A DNA stretch of 64,000 nucleotides from Desulfurococcus amylolyticus Z-533 (GTDB lineage: Archaea > Thermoproteota > Thermoprotei_A > Sulfolobales > Desulfurococcaceae): NCBI RefSeq assembly GCF_000513855.1, contig NZ_KI911318.1:696484-760483 (forward strand), written 5' to 3'. Made by a program: the position numbers and the translations under genes. Below the pieces are notes generated by a model. It ran no database searches. It was given only the letters and a program-made list of their open reading frames with translations, and was not told where the DNA came from. Below, piece by piece: positions 48,081 to 58,096 of the stretch; within the stretch, counting starts at the first letter, position 1; every line of letters begins with the position of its first letter.

Positions 48081-48146
48081 AATTAATATTAATTAAGGAG
48101 TATTGCTCATAGAGTAATACAGCCCCAAATGCATCTGGGGGTTTTA

Positions 48147-49082
48147 ATGGGTTTTTATAGCAGTATTAAGAAAATCCTGGTCGATGATGAATTGCTTATT
48201 GAGAAAGAGAAAGAGCTCAGGATTATTATTGCATCAATACTCGCTAAGGGACACATGATAATGGAGGGTGTCCCGGGTATTGCTAAAACCTATACTGCTA
48301 AAGCTGTTTCAAAACTCCTTGACTTAGAGTTTAAACGGGTTCAAATGACCCCGGATCTACTACCATCGGATATAATAGGCTATTATGTATTCGACCAGAA
48401 AACCGGGGGGTTTATCGTTAAGAAAGGACCTGTTTTCACCAATATTCTTTTAGCCGACGAGATCAACAGAGCCTCCCCTAGAACACAGTCAGCATTACTT
48501 GAGGCTATGCAGGAGAGGCAGGTGACTATTGAAGGCGAGACATATAGGCTCCCGGAGCCCTTCATAGTTATAGCAACAATGAACCCCGTGGAGATGGAGG
48601 GTGTGTTCCCGCTTCCAGAGGCACAGCTGGATAGATTCCTCGTTAAAGTGGAAACCAGTTATACTTCTCACGTAGGCTTGGTTAAAATACTTAAGAGATC
48701 CGATGAGATCGAGAAAGCTATCAACGAGCTTAAACCAGTTGTCTCCCGCCAGGAGATACTAGAGGAAATTAATAGGGTTACAAGTATTAAGGTGGATGAG
48801 TCAATCTATGACTACGTTGCCTCAATAATCGAGGAGACTCGTAGGCATCCAGCAGTGAGGCTCGGTGGCTCGCCTAGGGCTGGGATAGCATTAATCAAGC
48901 TGGCTAGGTCACTGGCGTACATTGAGGGGAGAAACTATGTTATACCCGATGATGTCAAGGAGGCATGTAAACCAGTGCTACTGCATAGATTGATCCTCAA
49001 GCCCGAGTATGAGGTGCAGGGATTGAGCGTTGAAAGAGTAATCGATGATGTCTTATCAAGTGTTAAGGTGCCCTCTCCATGA
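48147..49082 (+). CDS. MoxR-type AAA+ ATPase
   Basis: 311 residues from ATG 48147 (an in-frame ATG at 48129 adds six residues). Walker A is MEGVPGIAKTYTAKA, Walker B and sensor regions are LLADEINRASPRTQSALLEA and IATMNPVEMEG, then GGSPRAGIALIKLARS. MoxR ATPases act with DUF58/VWA-type proteins as chaperones for membrane or extracytoplasmic complexes. First gene of a six-gene operon; the stop overlaps the next ATG by 4 bases. Confidence 0.92.
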   Translation: MGFYSSIKKILVDDELLIEKEKELRIIIASILAKGHMIMEGVPGIAKTYTAKAVSKLLDLEFKRVQMTPDLLPSDIIGYYVFDQKTGGFIVKKGPVFTNILLADEINRASPRTQSALLEAMQERQVTIEGETYRLPEPFIVIATMNPVEMEGVFPLPEAQLDRFLVKVETSYTSHVGLVKILKRSDEIEKAINELKPVVSRQEILEEINRVTSIKVDESIYDYVASIIEETRRHPAVRLGGSPRAGIALIKLARSLAYIEGRNYVIPDDVKEACKPVLLHRLILKPEYEVQGLSVERVIDDVLSSVKVPSP

Positions 49083-50161
49083 AGAGCCTATTCATAATAT
49101 CTATAGCCTTGGTAATTATTACAGCGTCAACTCCTCTAGCACCTATTGCTGAGGACAGACATACAGCTGGGTTCCCGAATCAGCTAGATTCCCCTATAAG
49201 CATGGATGAGTTAATACGTGAACTATATAATACATCGATAATAACCTTGGGATCCAGCCTAGATGAAGCAAGTATTTCGAGTCTACTGGATAATCTCACA
49301 CGAAGTGGGTTATTGAATGAGACATATAGGAACAAACTTAGTAGAATATTATTTGATCCCCCTGAATCACTCGTTGCCAATATAAGTAACCCCGAGCTAC
49401 GCTTACTACTCAGCAAGCTAGTTAGTAAGGAGAATATATCATATGATGAGTTGTCCACTATACTTAAATACGTGGATACCTTGAAGGCCACTAATAGTCT
49501 AAGCCTTGAGGATGAGTTGATAGCCTATAAAATTCTCTCCGAGCTCTCAAGTAGAAACCGGTTGGGCGATACAGAGGTACCTGGTAGAATAATGTCAACT
49601 CTGATGAATATACTTGGATTAAGCCATATATCATTAGAGGAGACCATGGGAAATACATCGTTAAGCATACCACGCGTGAATTTACCGGGTGTAGCAGTGT
49701 CTGGCGTGAAGCAGGGTCTACAGAGTCTAAATCTACTGGTTCGAGGTCCTTTATGGCCTGGATTACTTGGAGTATTCATTGCTGTCTTTACAATAGTGTT
49801 GATCACGGCTACTAAGGGAGGTAAAATCATCGGAGTAATAGGTAAAATCTACTCAGGTATTACACTAGGGAGAACAAGGAGGTATAGTTATGGTGAACCA
49901 GGGGACTGTATCTCAGCATACTGGTTCACTGTAGCCATGCTGGCAAGTAGATACAGGGTCTTAAAGATGCCTTCTGAAACACATAGGGAGTATCTTGAGA
50001 GAATTATACATAGGGTTCCACCCGAAATAGTTAGGCTGGTTGAAGAGATCACTAGGTTATATGAGGTTTGTAGATTCGGAGAATCCACGAGGAAGAGAGA
50101 AGCTGATAGGGAGGCGATCGAAAAATATCGCGAATTGGTGAATAAAATTGAACATGGCTAG
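49079..50161 (+). CDS. DUF4129-like membrane protein
   Basis: 360 residues. An N-terminal signal (SLFIISIALVIITASTPLAP) leads to an outside helical domain of about 200 residues, a TM helix (LLGVFIAVFTIVLITAT, about 235-251), and a cytoplasmic C-terminus with the DUF4129 pattern YWFTVAMLASRYRVLKMPSE-TxREYLERI and LYEVCRFGES. DUF4129 is typical of MoxR/DUF58 operons. It overlaps both neighbours. Confidence 0.7.
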   Translation: MKSLFIISIALVIITASTPLAPIAEDRHTAGFPNQLDSPISMDELIRELYNTSIITLGSSLDEASISSLLDNLTRSGLLNETYRNKLSRILFDPPESLVANISNPELRLLLSKLVSKENISYDELSTILKYVDTLKATNSLSLEDELIAYKILSELSSRNRLGDTEVPGRIMSTLMNILGLSHISLEETMGNTSLSIPRVNLPGVAVSGVKQGLQSLNLLVRGPLWPGLLGVFIAVFTIVLITATKGGKIIGVIGKIYSGITLGRTRRYSYGEPGDCISAYWFTVAMLASRYRVLKMPSETHREYLERIIHRVPPEIVRLVEEITRLYEVCRFGESTRKREADREAIEKYRELVNKIEHG

Positions 50162-51254
50162 GCTTGTAATCGAGGCTGGCAGAAGGCTGGTTGTACTGGC
50201 CATACTTTACGATGCATCAACTATACTGGTAAGCCATATGCTCCCTAATGTTTTGGGCATGATTGTTTTAATAGTCACCATATTACTAGCGGCTTCAATG
50301 GCTTTAATAGGAAGTCTCACGGTATATATTTTAGCTGTATCATTGGTTACATTATTCTCCGCAATGGTGCACTCTCTTCCAGTTGCCTCGATCACATGTC
50401 TACCAGTACTTCTACTACTCGATACTGTCTCGAGTATTTACAAGGGTGGCGAGTTATCCTGGTCCGGCGTCAGTTCCATGGATATTGCCAGAAGTCTTGC
50501 ATCATTGCTTCTACTATATATACCAATGCTCCTGGTATCAATGCTACTAGCCCATGTCTCATGGATGCTGGTTGAGAGCATGGAGAATGTATTCCTGGGT
50601 GCAGCTGTGACTAACCCACTGGTTTCACCTATAGTGTTATCCAAGGTGTTCATTACAGCTTTAACAATCATACTAGTGATCTACTTCTACCGAGTGCTTA
50701 AAGCAGGGGTTGAGGTAGTTGCTTTATTTCTTTTCGCGACTAGTAGGCAAGCCGTTAAAGAGCTTGCCAGGGAATCGGATATAGACATCGTCTTTTCCCC
50801 ACCGTTTTCATGGTTTTTAGAGCTCCCCATAGTCTTCCTTATATATCCATTTTTCTACACCGTAATCTACGATGTCTACTTGCCATTAATTCTTGGAGAC
50901 ACACTGGGCTCTATGCCGCAGGGTATCACATTGTTTCTCCAGTTCGCAATCGGCTTACTCGCATTCACTATCTCAACAGCTCTAGTTAGAGACTTCATCG
51001 ATCCAGGTGCTCTTAGAGGTGTGGAGATCGATGGAGGGAGAGGCCTAATTATTAAACCCTTAATATTCACTCTATTCATTTATCTGACCTCGGTGATGCT
51101 AGCATTACGGAGGGGCTATCCCATCATTGATTCATTACTTAGCCCGAGTTTCAGCGAGTTCGCCGGCTTAATCAGTTCTAACTACATTGATTCGAGTTCC
51201 TTCTTTGTTTCACTACTGAGTGATGTATTAAGAATAGTGGGGGTTGTTACATGA
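50148..51254 (+). CDS. Polytopic membrane protein of the MoxR operon
   Basis: 368 residues, about ten hydrophobic segments and few charged loops. A TTG at 50148 has GGTG 7 bases upstream and is preferred over the ATG at 50154; both overlap the preceding stop. No family is recognised. Its conservation with the MoxR and DUF58 genes would suggest that it is the membrane core of the complex. Confidence 0.65.
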   Translation: MNMARLVIEAGRRLVVLAILYDASTILVSHMLPNVLGMIVLIVTILLAASMALIGSLTVYILAVSLVTLFSAMVHSLPVASITCLPVLLLLDTVSSIYKGGELSWSGVSSMDIARSLASLLLLYIPMLLVSMLLAHVSWMLVESMENVFLGAAVTNPLVSPIVLSKVFITALTIILVIYFYRVLKAGVEVVALFLFATSRQAVKELARESDIDIVFSPPFSWFLELPIVFLIYPFFYTVIYDVYLPLILGDTLGSMPQGITLFLQFAIGLLAFTISTALVRDFIDPGALRGVEIDGGRGLIIKPLIFTLFIYLTSVMLALRRGYPIIDSLLSPSFSEFAGLISSNYIDSSSFFVSLLSDVLRIVGVVT

Positions 51255-51523
51255 GTAGTGGACAGGGGAAGACAAGGGCTGGTAGGATGGGTTTCCAAAT
51301 ACTTATAGCACTCGGTGTTTCAGTTTTACTCGTATCACTTATCCTAATGATCCAATCGATAGGATATATGGAGGGAGCCATGGTAGGCGCTTCATTATTA
51401 ACTGCATTGATAGGTTTCTCCCTCCTCTCGGCTTCACTATATATATTGAGGCTGGCGGCATATGTATACGCAACAGAGAGGAGGGGGGAGAGTGGAGAAA
51501 AAGAGGAGACAGGGGAGAGGTAG
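51251..51523 (+). CDS. Small two-TM protein of the MoxR operon
   Basis: 90 residues. Two membrane helices (about 17-38 and 44-72) are flanked by a basic N-terminus (MSSGQGKTRAGRMG) and an acidic/basic tail. The ATG overlaps the preceding stop (ATGA), which supports translation. The function is unknown. Confidence 0.65.
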   Translation: MSSGQGKTRAGRMGFQILIALGVSVLLVSLILMIQSIGYMEGAMVGASLLTALIGFSLLSASLYILRLAAYVYATERRGESGEKEETGER

Positions 51524-53003
51524 TCTAGTAGCAACATCCATGGTGCTAGCACTTGTCTTCATAGGTTTAATAGCCCTAGTTGAAAGAGGGCCAGTTGTCC
51601 CAGGGTTCCCAGTGGGTGCATCCCCATTTAACCCGTTATCTTTTGGTACACTGGGGTTAGTTAAGGATCTCGAGCATTACTACACTGTTAGAATAGCTAG
51701 CTCCATGGAGGATCTCAATAGATTAACCGGTGGTAAATGTATTTATGTAGTGATATCGCCGGAGAAGCCTTTTGTAGCCAGTGAAGCCGAGTACATAGTG
51801 AAATCACTCAGCGAGAGATGCAGGGAAGCAATAGTCTTCATCGGAGACGAATCAACTTATTCAAACGGGCTCTTGGAAGCGTTGAATACAAGTATCCGAG
51901 TTACCGGTAGCAGAATATACGTGAGCCAGTGTAGTGATATGGCATGCGGGTACTCGCCGTATCCACGTGCCCGGCTAATCCTTGGAAACAGGTCGTTCAA
52001 CCTAGTTCTAGATAAGGCATCCAATCTCATTGGTAGGGGAATTATACGGGGGTATATTACCGGGGGATGTGTTGTTACATTGCCTGGTGCAGGAGGCTTT
52101 GAATGCAGTAGTATCGCGGTTGGAGCTAACGAGACCGTAGAGGCAGGAATCCATGACCCTGTTGTAGCATTAGAGGATCACGACTCACGTATACCGGTCT
52201 ACGTGATAGGGGATGGCTCGATATTTCTTAACCAGGTGATTAACTCGGGGAATCAGAGCGAGTACAAGGTGTTCGTGTTAGAGTTATTCCAGTATTTATG
52301 TGGAGGGGAGAGCGGGTGTATTATGGTATTTGACAACATGCACTATGAAACGATCAATGCATTCAACCTACTAGTGAATCCAGGCTTAATTACAGGGGCT
52401 GGAACTGGTTTAAGTGATATACTCTACGTATTCTCCCTTATACTTGCAACAATTATACATCCATCATTCTGGATGCCCCTGGTATTCAAATTTCTCGATG
52501 AATTATTCTCCACGCTTCTAGCCAACATGTTCCTAGCTATCCTCGTATTACTAGCAGTCACCATAGTTGTAGACAAGTACTTAACAAGGGGCATTGTTTT
52601 CAGGGGGGATGAAGTGTTAAGGGAGCAGGTTGAAAGAGATATTACAGTGTTTGAATCAGTGAGGAGGAAGATAATTGAGAAGAAGGAGAAGCTGGGCAGG
52701 GATGACTTCCTAAACATCTATTGGCTAGCGAACCAGGTGTTAACCATGATACTAGGGGTTGAACTATCCAGTCCAGCCTTCATTGAGAGAACATCACAAT
52801 ACGTGGGAAGTGATCTAGCTAGCTCGTACTGGAGCTACATGAATAAGCTATATAGGAGAGCAGTAGGGGAGTCTTGGAGACCGCTTATAGTGAGGTGGCA
52901 TAGTGAAGCACTTAAAGCCTATAGTGAAACCGAAAAAATGCTTTCACTCATTACATCAAGGCTTCAGATAGGGGATTATAGAAGGCTTCTAGCGGGGATC
53001 TAA
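51492..53003 (+). CDS. DUF4350-like membrane-anchored protein of the MoxR operon
   Basis: 503 residues from a GTG at 51492, chosen because GGAGGGGGGA lies directly upstream; it overlaps the preceding gene by 32 bases. After a TM helix (VATSMVLALVFIGLIALVER) comes a DUF4350-type alpha/beta domain (CIYVVISPEKPFVASEAEYI, IVFIGDEST, about 60-280). A second TM region near 340-360 follows (SFWMPLVFKFLDE ... ILVLLAVTIVVDKYL), then a cytoplasmic helical tail. DUF4350 proteins accompany MoxR/DUF58 genes. Confidence 0.72.
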   Translation: MEKKRRQGRGSLVATSMVLALVFIGLIALVERGPVVPGFPVGASPFNPLSFGTLGLVKDLEHYYTVRIASSMEDLNRLTGGKCIYVVISPEKPFVASEAEYIVKSLSERCREAIVFIGDESTYSNGLLEALNTSIRVTGSRIYVSQCSDMACGYSPYPRARLILGNRSFNLVLDKASNLIGRGIIRGYITGGCVVTLPGAGGFECSSIAVGANETVEAGIHDPVVALEDHDSRIPVYVIGDGSIFLNQVINSGNQSEYKVFVLELFQYLCGGESGCIMVFDNMHYETINAFNLLVNPGLITGAGTGLSDILYVFSLILATIIHPSFWMPLVFKFLDELFSTLLANMFLAILVLLAVTIVVDKYLTRGIVFRGDEVLREQVERDITVFESVRRKIIEKKEKLGRDDFLNIYWLANQVLTMILGVELSSPAFIERTSQYVGSDLASSYWSYMNKLYRRAVGESWRPLIVRWHSEALKAYSETEKMLSLITSRLQIGDYRRLLAGI

Positions 53004-54323
53004 ATGGCTATTCATGCTACAACAAGGCTGAGGCTCTACATGTTATCTACTGCCCTGCTTCTAGCTGGAGCCATAATAGTTGACCCAACTTTCCTGCCTC
53101 CAGCCCTACTACTCCTTTCTCTCCCAGTGTTCTCATACATAGCTATAGAGTCAAACTATAAAATCCTTAAGAGCATAAAGGTCTCAGGCTCAGTCGCCAT
53201 GGAAACCGGTGGAAGATTCTTCGTCGAGTATACTATTATAAACCCTACTAGAATACCTATTCTGCCAGTTGAGTTCAGCATACAGTATAGCGAGCTGATA
53301 AAGCTAGTCAAGGGATCAAAGAGGGGCTTATTAATAATACCACCTAGAGCAAAGGTTAAGCTAAGGTTCTCCTTTCACGGCAGATTAGGTGAACACTTTG
53401 TTGGCCCGCTTAAAATAGTTCTAAGGGATCTCTTTGGATTCTATAGATCGAGTGACGAATATCTTGGAAAAGCACTGGTGGTCAATATACCTCCCACCGT
53501 TGAGGAGGTCATTGTCAGGAAACTACTCATATATGCGAGAAGTACTGGGCTCGTTAAATCAAGGATCCCTGGGGAGGGAGTCGAATTCTATGATATACGG
53601 GATTATTCACCGGGCGATGAAGCGAAGAGGATAGTCTGGCGTATCTATGCTTCAAGAAGAATGCTTGCCATCTGGGAGCCTGAGAAGGAGGTGTTTCAAC
53701 CAGTGTTATTCATACTTGATGGGACAAGAGAGATGTGGAGCGGCCCAATGAGTCAATCCATGATAGAGCATTCAGCGAGGATCATATCTTCCATAATATA
53801 CTACCTAGTTAAAAGAGGCTACCCTGTCTCAGCAACCGTCTTCAATGAGTCACTAGTGCACACCAGTGGGAAACCCATGCATGGATATCACGGATACATG
53901 GAGGCTCTAAGAGTACTCTCCAAGGTAAGGTTTGAGGAGGGGGATGAATCACATAGGCGTAGGGCGTTATCAGGAGTACTCTCATACACGTATACCAGGA
54001 TTCTCCCAAGAGATAGAAGTATAATATTTCTCTTTACACATCTCAGGGATACCATTATAGATGAAATAGCTGCGTGGAATAACCTATACAAGGATAAAGG
54101 CCATATCCTCTACATTGTCCACCCCCTTATAACAGCCTATGAGTCAGATAGCGATGTCCCTGAGTGGGTTGCGAATATATATAGGGTGAAACTAATAGAG
54201 AACCTTCGAGAAGACATGGCAGTCATCTCCAGGGCGCGTGGGAGAGGGTTGAAGGTAATAGCTGTTACCCCTGATCTAATACCCCAGAGGGTCATGGATA
54301 TTATTGAGAGGTATAGCTCGTAG
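53004..54323 (+). CDS. DUF58 domain protein
   Basis: 439 residues. Two N-terminal TM helices (about 10-48) precede a beta domain and the DUF58 signature GEGVEFYDIRDYSPGDEAKR, then IVWRIYASRRMLAIWEPEKE. A VWA-like region follows, with ILDGTREMW replacing the MIDAS DxSxS motif, so metal binding may be lost. It is the last gene of the MoxR operon, which starts at 48147. Confidence 0.88.
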   Translation: MAIHATTRLRLYMLSTALLLAGAIIVDPTFLPPALLLLSLPVFSYIAIESNYKILKSIKVSGSVAMETGGRFFVEYTIINPTRIPILPVEFSIQYSELIKLVKGSKRGLLIIPPRAKVKLRFSFHGRLGEHFVGPLKIVLRDLFGFYRSSDEYLGKALVVNIPPTVEEVIVRKLLIYARSTGLVKSRIPGEGVEFYDIRDYSPGDEAKRIVWRIYASRRMLAIWEPEKEVFQPVLFILDGTREMWSGPMSQSMIEHSARIISSIIYYLVKRGYPVSATVFNESLVHTSGKPMHGYHGYMEALRVLSKVRFEEGDESHRRRALSGVLSYTYTRILPRDRSIIFLFTHLRDTIIDEIAAWNNLYKDKGHILYIVHPLITAYESDSDVPEWVANIYRVKLIENLREDMAVISRARGRGLKVIAVTPDLIPQRVMDIIERYSS

Positions 54324-54346: not shown

Positions 54347-54354
54347 TATAAATA
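54347..54354 (+). promoter_or_regulatory. TATA box of the encapsulin operon
   Basis: TATAAATA lies 36-43 bases before the ATG at 54390, with A/T-rich DNA upstream after the DUF58 stop. This predicts a short leader containing GGTAG before the start. Inferred from spacing. Confidence 0.5.
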
Positions 54355-54389: not shown

Positions 54390-55466
54390 ATGATGTCCAA
54401 GCATCCTCTTGACCTACCATTGAACAGGAAGCTTACACTCGATGAAATCATGGAGGCATTAAGACTATCCATAATAGCCGAGTTAGATGCGGTGAACCTA
54501 TACCTTCAACTAGCTAGATCTATAGACGATGAAAAGGTGAGAAGAGTATTTGAGGACATAGCTAACGAGGAAAAAACGCATATAGGCGAGTTCCTGGCTG
54601 TATTGGAGTCACTGGATCCCCAGCAGGTAGAGGAGTTGAAGAGGGGGGCTGAGGAGGTCAGGGAGCTAACTGGTATAAGTAGCCCGCAGGGGCGAGGAGC
54701 TGGTGTGGGCACAAAGAATAGTGATGGATCAAACACCAGTGAAGACCCTCAGGGCATAGAATTAGTGGGCAAGATATTCCTCAACATAGTGAATGAGACC
54801 AGGTCTCTACGCAAGTACATACCCGTAGTAGATTTGGGGAAAGGTATTGAAAGCGTGGTCCTCGAGAAAACCGGGGAGACCCTACAGCGTATAGTAGTAC
54901 CTTTGAGAGAGCTATCAGTATACTTCAGAATCACTCAAAGAAGTCTTGAGTACTCATATAGAACCAAGACCAGTATCGATGCACCAGACATGTATCAGGC
55001 TGCGCTTAAACTAGCCACCATGGAGGATTCACTGATAATAGGATCCATTTTAGATTCCAATGATGTTTTAAGGAGTAAGCTTAGTGATTGGCGGACTGAG
55101 GATGCACCAGTTATTGATGTGGTAAACGCTGTTAACAAGCTTTACTCCGCCGGGGCTACCAGGCCATTTGTACTAGTGATCAACCCAGCTAACTATGTTA
55201 ACATGGTTAAATCAACTGGTAGAACAGGACTCACTGAGCTTGACAGGGTGAGGCAGGTAGTGGATCATATCGTTGTCTCACCGGTAATAGGGGAGGATAA
55301 GGCCATAGTGTTATCTGCTAAGCCATATGTTATTGATGTGGTGACCGGTGGAGATATCTCGGTGGATTATATTGGGCCAGAGAAAGATATGCATGTATTC
55401 AGGGCATGGGAGCTGATAGCTTTAAGAATAAAACATGGTGAAGGCATAATAGTACTTGAGAGGTAG
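54390..55466 (+). CDS. Encapsulin shell protein fused to an N-terminal ferritin-like domain
   Basis: 358 residues in two parts. Residues 17-90 form an encapsulated-ferritin-like two-helix domain: E31 in IIAELDAVNLYL, and E61 and H64 in IANEEKTHIGEF, the same spacing as the E32/E62/H65 iron ligands of Rhodospirillum encapsulated ferritin. A Gly/Ser-rich linker (about 97-122) follows. Residues 123-358 match the HK97-fold encapsulin shell. The same order is known from the Pyrococcus furiosus virus-like particle protein, whose shells have T=3 symmetry. The shell should be an iron-storing compartment with cargo built in. A second ferritin-like gene follows 7 bases after the stop. Confidence 0.85.
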   Translation: MMSKHPLDLPLNRKLTLDEIMEALRLSIIAELDAVNLYLQLARSIDDEKVRRVFEDIANEEKTHIGEFLAVLESLDPQQVEELKRGAEEVRELTGISSPQGRGAGVGTKNSDGSNTSEDPQGIELVGKIFLNIVNETRSLRKYIPVVDLGKGIESVVLEKTGETLQRIVVPLRELSVYFRITQRSLEYSYRTKTSIDAPDMYQAALKLATMEDSLIIGSILDSNDVLRSKLSDWRTEDAPVIDVVNAVNKLYSAGATRPFVLVINPANYVNMVKSTGRTGLTELDRVRQVVDHIVVSPVIGEDKAIVLSAKPYVIDVVTGGDISVDYIGPEKDMHVFRAWELIALRIKHGEGIIVLER

Positions 55467-55473
55467 GTATGAA

Positions 55474-55947
55474 ATGAGCCAGGAACTGGTTACTAGGCTA
55501 TTGGCCTACTCTAAAATAGAGGAGGAACATGCTAGAAAGCTAGTAGAGCTGGGTGAGTCGCTTAACCACCCGGTTTTAAGAACAATATTTCTATCTATAG
55601 CCAGAGACTCGGAGAAGCATGGAATGATATACAAGGCCCTCTCAGAACTCGTATCTAATCCACAGCCATTTATAACTGAGAAAGAGTTCGAGAATATTAG
55701 AAAAGTAATATCAAACCATATAGAGACAGAGGCCAAAATGCTCAAGGTTGTTGATGAATTACTCAATGAAGCAGAGGACTCACGCGTAAAGCTATTACTG
55801 GCCGCTATAAGAGATGACGAGGTAAAGCATCACGCCTTACTAGCTTCAATAAGGGATAAGCTGGCCTCACTAGAAACATTAACAGAGCAGAAATTATGGG
55901 ATATGGTTTGGAAGGAATCCCCGTGGCATGGTACGCCCGGAGGATAG
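55474..55947 (+). CDS. Ferritin-like four-helix protein next to the encapsulin
   Basis: 157 residues from ATG 55474, preceded by GAGGTAGG; an upstream TTG would overlap the encapsulin gene. Four helices carry the acid/His clusters IEEEHARKLVELGE (16-19), ARDSEKHGMIYKAL (45-49), HIETEAKML (82-86) and RDDEVKHHALL (115-120), the pattern of rubrerythrin/ferritin-like di-iron proteins. There is no rubredoxin domain. It ends in SPWHGTPGG, which could be a loading peptide for the shell, though this is a guess. Confidence 0.78.
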   Translation: MSQELVTRLLAYSKIEEEHARKLVELGESLNHPVLRTIFLSIARDSEKHGMIYKALSELVSNPQPFITEKEFENIRKVISNHIETEAKMLKVVDELLNEAEDSRVKLLLAAIRDDEVKHHALLASIRDKLASLETLTEQKLWDMVWKESPWHGTPGG

Positions 55948-56100
55948 ACATTTAAAAATGCTTTTTGGCTTCTCTGTGCACGAGCATCCCTCTCAGCACC
56001 CGCTCACCGCTCGCGGGGTCGTCGAGGGCTTCATGATGGGTACCGCTTGGCCAGTCTCGCGAGGCTTGACAGAAACTAAAATAGTGGACGCAGGCAACCA
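55948..56100. other. GC-rich stretch between convergent genes
   Basis: 153 bases between the ferritin-like gene and the flavodiiron gene, richer in G+C than its surroundings, with GTCTCGCGAGGCTTGACAGA (56055-56074) and hairpin-prone GCTCACCGCTCGCGGGG. The first bases resemble the dispersed repeat only loosely. It could be a bidirectional terminator or a further IS remnant; I cannot decide. Confidence 0.35.
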
Positions 56101-57318
56101 CTATTTTTTCAACGACTCTATTAAGCCAATTATTTTATCCCTATACCTTTCCTCTTCGCCAGCCTTAAACTCGACTACCCCTACGACTTTGAAGCCTTGA
56201 GTACTCATCATTTCCTCTAGTATTTTACCTGCTTTACCTCCCCACCCATACTGTGCTATAATTGCTACCTTCTTTCCTCTCGGGGTCTTCCTGGTTATCA
56301 GTGATGCTATATGCTTCATCAATGGATATAGGTCTGCATCATAAGTTGCTGATGCCAGTATTATGTTTTCAGCATCAAATGCTTCACCAATCACATCACT
56401 GATGCTAGGTCTATTGGAGTCGGTGAATCCAATCATATCTATATCCTGGTTCAAGCCCGAGAAGTATTCTCTAATTATTTTGACTGTTCTCTCAACGAAT
56501 CCGTACATTGATGTATATATGAGCAGGGTTTTACCTTGCTCTGGCTCTCCATGCCCCCATGACTTATATTTCTTGTACATGTAGTCTAAGGAGTCTCCTC
56601 TGAGGAGGAGCCCATGGGATGGAAGTACCAGGCTTGGAGTCACGCCCCGTGATACTAGTTTCTCAAGGTTTTTCACAACCCACTCATAGTGGATCCCTAT
56701 AACGTTGGCGAAGTATTTCTTTGCGTACCATAGGTATCTCTCATAGTCTTCCCCGCTGAGTTCATCTGCCCACACTTCCTTAAATACACCGTAGGAGCCG
56801 AATGCATCACAGGTGAGCAGCATCTTCCAGCTGGTTATGTAGGACATTATCGTCTCAGGCCAATGGAGCCATGGCGTGTGATAGAATATTATTTTTTCAT
56901 CATCGAACACTATTTCCTCCCCGTCTTTAACAGGCCTGAACTTCATCGAGACGCTGTAGAATGATTCAGCCATATTCTTAACCAATGGGTGACCGAGCAC
57001 TATTGGATCCGCCTTTTCAACTAGTGTTTTAAGTATCCCAGAGTGATCCGGCTCCATGTGGTGTACAACTATATACCTAACATCCCTTAAGTCAACTATG
57101 TTTCTAAGGGCTTCGAGAAACTCGTTTCCCAGCCCCATCTTCCAGGTGTCAAATACTATTGCACCTTCATTACTCGTGTAAACATAGGAGTTATACATTA
57201 TCCCCTCAGGTATCTCCCATAACCCTTCAAAATACTTGGTGCTTGTATCTTTGAAGCGTAACAGGTATAGGTTGCTTGTTAACTTAGATACATTATATTC
57301 CGTCATGTTATCATCCAT
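56101..57318 (-). CDS. Flavodiiron protein (FprA family)
   Basis: 405 residues. The metallo-beta-lactamase domain (about 1-250) has the di-iron ligand motif HHMEPDHSG (HxExDH), a later His in LHWPETI and Asp in CDAFG. The flavodoxin domain (about 256-405) binds FMN through YTSMYGFVERT. These enzymes reduce O2 to water or NO to N2O with electrons from rubredoxin or ferredoxin-linked donors. It is convergent with the ferritin/encapsulin genes and upstream of nothing on its strand until 43 kb apart from 55.9 kb repeats. The position suggests a shared oxygen-defence role. Confidence 0.9.
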   Translation of the reverse strand: MDDNMTEYNVSKLTSNLYLLRFKDTSTKYFEGLWEIPEGIMYNSYVYTSNEGAIVFDTWKMGLGNEFLEALRNIVDLRDVRYIVVHHMEPDHSGILKTLVEKADPIVLGHPLVKNMAESFYSVSMKFRPVKDGEEIVFDDEKIIFYHTPWLHWPETIMSYITSWKMLLTCDAFGSYGVFKEVWADELSGEDYERYLWYAKKYFANVIGIHYEWVVKNLEKLVSRGVTPSLVLPSHGLLLRGDSLDYMYKKYKSWGHGEPEQGKTLLIYTSMYGFVERTVKIIREYFSGLNQDIDMIGFTDSNRPSISDVIGEAFDAENIILASATYDADLYPLMKHIASLITRKTPRGKKVAIIAQYGWGGKAGKILEEMMSTQGFKVVGVVEFKAGEEERYRDKIIGLIESLKK

Positions 57319-57394: not shown

Positions 57395-58096
57395 TTAGGG
57401 TTTCGCGGCTCTTTCAAGCCAGGAGCGCGCTTCCTTTACTTCTTCGGGCGGTACCTTTCCTTCCTCGTAGCATAGCCACCAGTCGAAGCACTTATACTGC
57501 TTAACCCTCTCCTTTGCTTCCTGTATCGTTGAGGCTGGTGGAACGATTAATCCATCCCCGATTAATTCATTGTTAGGCCATCCAGCTGGCACAGCCCTCT
57601 TATACTTATCGTTCAACTGTAACGCTTTTACCAGTCTCAGTATTTCATCTATGTTGCGCCCGGTCTCCTGTGGATAGTAAATTACAGCCCTTATGATGCC
57701 GTTTCCATCAATGATGATTACTGCCCTAACGGTATGTGTAGCACTTTGAGCGTGAAGGAACCCGAGCCTCCTCGATACTTCACCATTAGGATCAGCTATT
57801 ATTGGGAAGGGTATTTCAACGCCTAGTTTCTCCTGGATCCACTCAATCCACTTGATATGGGAGAAGACGCTGTCAACGCTTAGCCCAAGTAGCTCAGCAT
57901 TCAGTTTCTTAAAATCCTCGTATCTCTTTGCGAATGCCACGAACTCAGTGGTACAGACCGGTGTGAAGTCGGCTGGGTGACTGAATAATACGAGGTACTT
58001 ACCCTTATAGTCATCGGGGAGCTTCTTCTTGCCATGCGTGGTCACTACTTCCATCTGAGGGAATGGTTCGCCTATTAATGGGATTTGCCCAGGCAT
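57395..58096 (-). CDS. Peroxiredoxin (Prx6/archaeal thioredoxin peroxidase type)
   Basis: 233 residues. The peroxidatic cysteine is C48 in [12 protein letters not shown], and the C-terminal [11 protein letters not shown] holds C203 and C209. The spacing matches the Aeropyrum enzyme (C50, C207, C213), which forms toroid decamers. It reduces hydrogen peroxide and alkyl peroxides. It lies 76 bases upstream of the flavodiiron gene on the same strand and may be cotranscribed. Confidence 0.92.

Follow-up and report, generated by a model that had tools for sequence, protein, structure and literature searches.

The two adjoining genes at positions 54390 to 55947 of the window, i.e. of the whole analyzed stretch of 64,000 nucleotides, are best read as an ordinary Flp-fusion iron encapsulin operon with a probably cytosolic diiron redox partner, which would make them a two-gene operon for iron handling and oxidative defence. 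The first gene fuses a two-helix ferroxidase (EncFtn) domain to an encapsulin shell, while the second encodes a ferritin-like protein, FLP2, whose C-terminal WHGTPGG tail had been proposed in a sequence-only reading to load it into the shell as a second cargo. This proposal is not supported, because the tail is equally conserved in genomes without a shell, because one congener (G101) carries FLP2 beside a bare EncFtn without a detectable shell, and because another (G002) carries the fusion without FLP2. The fusion is one further representative of a class already described, and the comparison around the locus is more useful: the same locus occurs in three states across three congeners, which amounts to a natural experiment. 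It makes testable which role EncFtn plays without a cage and whether FLP2 then takes over storage, release or peroxide removal.

The encapsulin fusion

The intact open reading frame at 54390–55466 (forward strand, 358 residues) is a fusion of EncFtn and shell that belongs to the family 1 'Flp-fusion' encapsulins. A putative TATA-box-like element of archaeal type, TATAAATA, can be read about 40 bases 5' of its start codon (54347–54354, forward strand). The N-terminal EncFtn domain (residues 1–97; 54390–54680, forward strand) is matched over residues 6–95 by NF058679 (EncB_fam; 2.9e-24, 85.3 bits, slightly below the cut-off of 90) and by PF02915 (6.1e-9), as well as by the EncFtn domain of Pyrococcus furiosus (5n5e; 3.4e-28). 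Its ligands E31, E61 and H64, which follow the E..ExxH pattern in frame with the shell, are conserved without exception in the 12 fusions compared, and the predicted domain has helices at residues 17–44, 48–75 and 77–94. A flexible linker (residues 98–119; 54681–54746, forward strand) that varies among relatives leads over to the shell, with a pLDDT below 50 at residues 89–117. The remainder of the gene (residues 120–358 plus stop codon; 54747–55466, forward strand) encodes a family 1 encapsulin shell that is matched over residues 157–356 by PF04454 (Linocin_M18; 1.7e-27) and NF041155 (106.8 bits, above the cut-off of 100). Modelling of residues 120–358 gives the HK97 fold with the P. furiosus VLP (2e0z) as top Foldseek match (E 3.8e-24, TM 0.85 on the target). 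A helix preceding the shell domain (residues 120–137) is present in the model of the fusion, and given its retention the shell may offer a cargo groove.

The domain pair with its three ligands, the HK97 fold of the shell part and the architecture known from P. furiosus had all been recognized from the sequence, and the profile and structure searches bear this out, with 2e0z as the closest solved relative by sequence and fold. The proposed Gly/Ser linker holds as a disordered linker (residues ~89–117 in the model); its richness in glycine and serine is only partial.

The neighboring ferritin-like protein FLP2

FLP2 (55474–55947, forward strand) starts with an ATG 7 bases past the fusion stop codon and, as had been noted, ends in WHGTPGG. 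Its intact reading frame encodes 157 residues without cysteines. The protein is matched by PF02915 (Rubrerythrin family) with 27.1 bits, above the curated cut-off of 22.8, and the C-terminal rubredoxin domain that marks rubrerythrins proper was sought in FLP2 without a match. The AF2 model (mean pLDDT 88.8) consists of two long hairpins (residues 2–61 and 69–133), a short fifth helix (138–147) and a low-confidence tail. At the level of the hairpins, it matches EncFtn, bacterioferritin and sulerythrin, whereas the whole chain superposes on compact bundles with an rmsd of 12–20 only and yields no Foldseek match below E 0.001. A compact one-chain bundle was hence rejected. The non-superposing chain may point toward domain swapping or may merely reflect an uncertain model. 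From the earlier description as a four-helix ferritin-like protein, the ferritin-like character was retained, while the fold is better called two ferritin-like hairpins plus a short fifth helix.

An alignment with 70 relatives revealed E16, D45, S46, K48, H49, H82, E86, D115, E116, H119, H120 and W146 as invariant, and all of these except W146 were likewise invariant in a second comparison with 69 relatives. In helix B, the DSxKH motif (S46-x-K48-H49) is unchanged in 90 relatives and places a serine at the position of the glutamate expected for the diiron site of EncFtn and archaeoferritin. Read from the sequences, the spacing of E31, E61 and H64 in EncFtn recurs in both hairpins of FLP2, completely in E86/E116/H119 and with serine in place of glutamate in E16/S46/H49. 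One bridging carboxylate is thus missing in all FLP2 relatives, with an aspartate alongside and extra invariant histidines at positions 82 and 120. The lost carboxylate and the additional histidines set FLP2 apart from archaeoferritin and suggest a changed metal chemistry. A diiron activity of FLP2 remains putative, given that one expected bridging glutamate is absent. An altered diiron or mixed-metal site is possible at residues 45–49 and 115–120. The genome of the window also has, away from this locus, an unambiguous member of the rubrerythrin family and a further, weak ferritin-like match (G000:C1:172085-172468 and 404692-405051), so that FLP2 is not its sole protein of the ferritin superfamily.

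The C-terminal tail

The tail of FLP2 (residues 148–157, ESPWHGTPGG; 55915–55944, forward strand) is modelled with low pLDDT. Relatives were gathered with a whole-protein search of 398 genomes of the phylum, in which the tail was no selection criterion; more distant ferritin-like matches, many of them ending before the tail, were excluded from the family count. The close relatives read over their whole length number 90, and in 86 of them the C-terminus is HGxPGG or a near variant of it. The tail occurs in all 28 relatives from genomes with a shell match versus 58 of the 62 from genomes without one (Fisher p 0.31), while the remaining four (L087, L103, L111 and L113), whose genomes have no shell match, end in VPFFF. 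By eye, SPWHGTPGG is unlike the known hydrophobic type of encapsulin targeting peptide, of which SLGIGSLK and LTVGSL are published examples (Table 2 of PMC11202242), and a literature search for the letters of the tail found nothing. A role as shell-targeting peptide was rejected in view of its retention without a shell. Since it is conserved equally with and without a shell, the tail is a signature of the FLP2 family rather than a shell address. A separate scan of named genomes, which used the tail as search pattern and is not counted as evidence for its conservation, places the FLP2 family also in Bathyarchaeota and Asgard archaea.

Genomic company of FLP2

FLP2 was found in 104 genomes, 73 of which have no shell match and 43 neither shell nor EncFtn. 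It lies within 5 kb of EncFtn in 22 of the 104 (13 fused, 9 bare). Direct adjacency to the fusion is seen in 13 of 59 fusion genomes from several families, with the same order and strand and gaps of 11–130 bases; another 32 of the 59 have no FLP2 match. In G101, G149 and G044, FLP2 stands beside a bare EncFtn without a shell. FLP2 and EncFtn occur together in 59 genomes, against an expectation of 36.6 (p 1e-7, without correction for common descent), and EncFtn (17 cases) and flavodoxin (15 cases) are immediate same-strand neighbors of FLP2 within 250 bases. Judged by these gene arrangements, the operon is real and the link of FLP2 goes via EncFtn, not via the shell. The sequence-only reading had staked its proposal on FLP2 being kept beside encapsulins in relatives; the outcome is mixed, as this is the case in the 13 fusion genomes, but the association runs through EncFtn.

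Genes recurrent near FLP2 encode superoxide dismutase, peroxiredoxin, desulfoferrodoxin, OsmC, ferritin and a rubredoxin-domain protein, which is a setting of oxygen and iron defence. In many genomes, at L082, L091, L106, L081 and other loci from outside the order of the window, a flavodoxin gene adjoins and often overlaps that of FLP2, with no neighboring shell. Possibly, FLP2 and flavodoxin form a reductase or electron-donor pair.

Bare EncFtn without a shell

By-products of the comparison are the FLP2 family itself and the frequency of shell-less EncFtn. Bare EncFtn proteins of about 95–115 residues are encoded in 81 of the 398 sampled genomes of the phylum, 78 of which lack a shell match. 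In the shell-less genomes, no shell exceeded the threshold with PF04454, with a shell-only profile at E≤1 (64 genomes) or with PF19307 (13 genomes). A shell hidden elsewhere in these genomes was rejected on the basis of these three negative searches. Some of the genomes are incomplete drafts, which makes single absences weak; G101 is the firm case. An EncFtn tree from 93 columns with few firm forks requires eight changes between the fused and the bare state, and its strongly supported branches may be compatible with a single origin.

Three states of one locus

Three congeneric genomes share the gene order AAA ATPase, DUF4129, DUF58, a variable slot, flavodiiron protein and peroxiredoxin. The slot of the window holds the fusion and FLP2. 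On its far side lie a convergent gene for a flavodiiron protein of ODP/FprA type (56101–57318, reverse strand; PF19583, 5.9e-15), whose place is conserved in two congeners, and a gene for a 1-Cys-type peroxiredoxin (57395–58096, reverse strand; PF00578, 1.6e-34; PF10417, 1.5e-9), a conserved neighbor by synteny. The cluster of AAA (MoxR-type) ATPase, DUF4129 and DUF58 genes occupies 48129–54323 immediately upstream and keeps its order in two congeners. The short GC-rich gap at 55975–56095, which separates FLP2 from the convergent flavodiiron gene, gave no Rfam match over the gathering threshold and no tRNA, and an RNA gene at this place was rejected.

In G101, a single contig rated 100% complete, the slot harbors a bare EncFtn of 105 residues (L221:6016-6330) followed by FLP2, and no shell was found in this genome by PF04454, by a 12-sequence shell-only profile at E≤1 or by PF19307. 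The shell-only profile does detect the shell of G002 (9.3e-88), where the slot contains the fusion only and FLP2 is absent from both the slot and the rest of the genome. G101 keeps FLP2 with no detectable shell and G002 keeps the fusion in the absence of FLP2, so that the two are independently dispensable. By the identities of the locus proteins, the window is nearer to G101 than to G002, and the EncFtn tree pairs it with G101 at an SH-aLRT of 88, which is under the starred level. On the simplest reading, an ancestor had both fusion and FLP2, the shell was lost in G101 and FLP2 was lost in G002. G101 keeps EncFtn and FLP2 without a detectable shell, although iron storage by the EncFtn of Rhodospirillum is reported to depend on the shell (PMC5012862).

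Function of the operon and alternative explanations

We regard it as somewhat probable that EncFtn oxidizes and stores iron in the cage, with FLP2 outside it in a diiron redox or iron-handling role. Among the elements of this reading, the domains, the gene arrangement, the independence of the tail from the shell and the separate losses of shell and FLP2 are direct observations. The fusion subunits would assemble into a closed icosahedral cage, as in P. furiosus, where the Flp-fusion cage has T=3 symmetry, and each subunit would bring one EncFtn domain inside. Paired EncFtn hairpins would then oxidize Fe(II) in the interior, with the mineral held by the cage. FLP2 would be a soluble protein of diiron type, active alongside EncFtn whether the latter is encapsulated or not, and would most likely reside in the cytosol. 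There, it could reduce peroxide or O2 or transfer iron to or from EncFtn, with electrons conceivably supplied by flavodoxin or rubredoxin-type donors. The PWHGxPGG tail would more likely serve such a partner or the assembly of FLP2 than the shell.

The gene arrangement would also fit other explanations. FLP2 and the encapsulin might be adjacent merely as members of a general oxidative-stress island, without interaction. The stress genes around FLP2 in many genomes and the 43 genomes that have it without EncFtn and without shell speak for this; the tight, same-order pairing with EncFtn in several families, bare EncFtn included, renders it unlikely. Still somewhat less credible is FLP2 as a soluble, archaeoferritin-like storage ferritin that builds its own mineral core in parallel to the encapsulin. 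Such a role would suit the ferritin-like fold and the gene context, and P. furiosus likewise clusters the archaeoferritin gene PF1196 with the genes for Dps (PF1193) and Fur (PF1195) (PMC3401498), but FLP2 has no second ExxH, carries an invariant serine for the helix B glutamate and, searched by sequence or profile, has no match to PF1190 (2fzf) at E≤1.

Least probable, and quite improbable in our estimate, is the two-cargo encapsulin in which the WHGTPGG tail draws FLP2 into a shell that already carries EncFtn covalently. The 7 bases between the genes, the gene order kept in 13 genomes of several families (gaps of 11–130 bases), the flexible tail in the model and the retained N-terminal helix of the shell are what such loading would lead one to expect. 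Opposed to this are the equal conservation of the tail without any shell, its dissimilarity to SLGIGSLK and LTVGSL (PMC11202242), the shell-less pairs with bare EncFtn in G101, G149 and G044, and the 32 of 59 fusion genomes without an FLP2 match. The cytosolic partner remains our preferred assignment for FLP2, with counterpoints: the tight adjacency of fusion and FLP2 in the 13 genomes would also fit co-encapsulation there, possibly by a route other than the tail, and a tail that evolved for a general partner could have been co-opted by the shell in some lineages.

A wider reading, which we consider possible rather than probable, takes FLP2 as an undescribed ferritin-like family that extends across Thermoproteota and Asgard archaea and is marked by an altered diiron site (invariant serine for the bridging glutamate, extra histidine) and a near-universal PWHGxPGG docking tail; no description of the family was found in the literature. 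FLP2 would then be a general partner of EncFtn, the latter would be shell-less in many archaea, and shell and ferroxidase would be separable modules that were repeatedly joined and split.

Comparison with known systems

The closest known system is the Flp-fusion encapsulin of P. furiosus (PF1192; PDB 2e0z, EncFtn domain 5n5e), which has the same N-terminal EncFtn domain and family 1 shell. Besides being the best structural match, 2e0z aligns with the fusion over nearly its full length (2.9e-53), and the fusion carries the DxxxEExTH motif described for archaeal fusions, as in the P. furiosus system. Flp-fusion encapsulins with neighboring ferritin-like genes were noted in 2021, Crenarchaeota, the same archaeal group with the same architecture, included (Andreas and Giessen, PMC8346489). 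Because of this report, the architecture and the ferritin-like neighbor are already known, and what the finding proposes beyond them is the tail-dependent loading of a second cargo. Its passages on the Crenarchaeota fusions take up neither the tail nor the neighbor's residue pattern nor shell-less congeners.

The bare EncFtn of G101 resembles the s-FLPs, i.e. short EncFtn proteins without targeting peptide such as NE0167 (PDB 3k6c), in that these have about 95 residues and no obvious targeting peptide. According to a review (PMC11202242), s-FLPs are found mostly in bacteria, whereas bare EncFtn without a detectable shell is common here in archaea.

Archaeoferritin (PF1196) and PF1190 are, like FLP2, archaeal ferritin-like proteins in an iron gene cluster. 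Archaeoferritin has the ExxH motif twice, in helices B and D (PMC3401498), whereas FLP2 has DSxKH in helix B, in all 90 relatives with S46-x-K48-H49, and HIxxE in helix C. With helix B devoid of ExxH and no 2fzf match at E≤1, from single sequence or profile, a relationship of FLP2 to archaeoferritin or PF1190 was rejected. With rubrerythrin and sulerythrin, FLP2 shares a PF02915 match above the cut-off and structural similarity at the hairpin level; it differs from them by the missing rubredoxin domain, the serine that replaces the helix B glutamate and the conserved PWHGxPGG tail.
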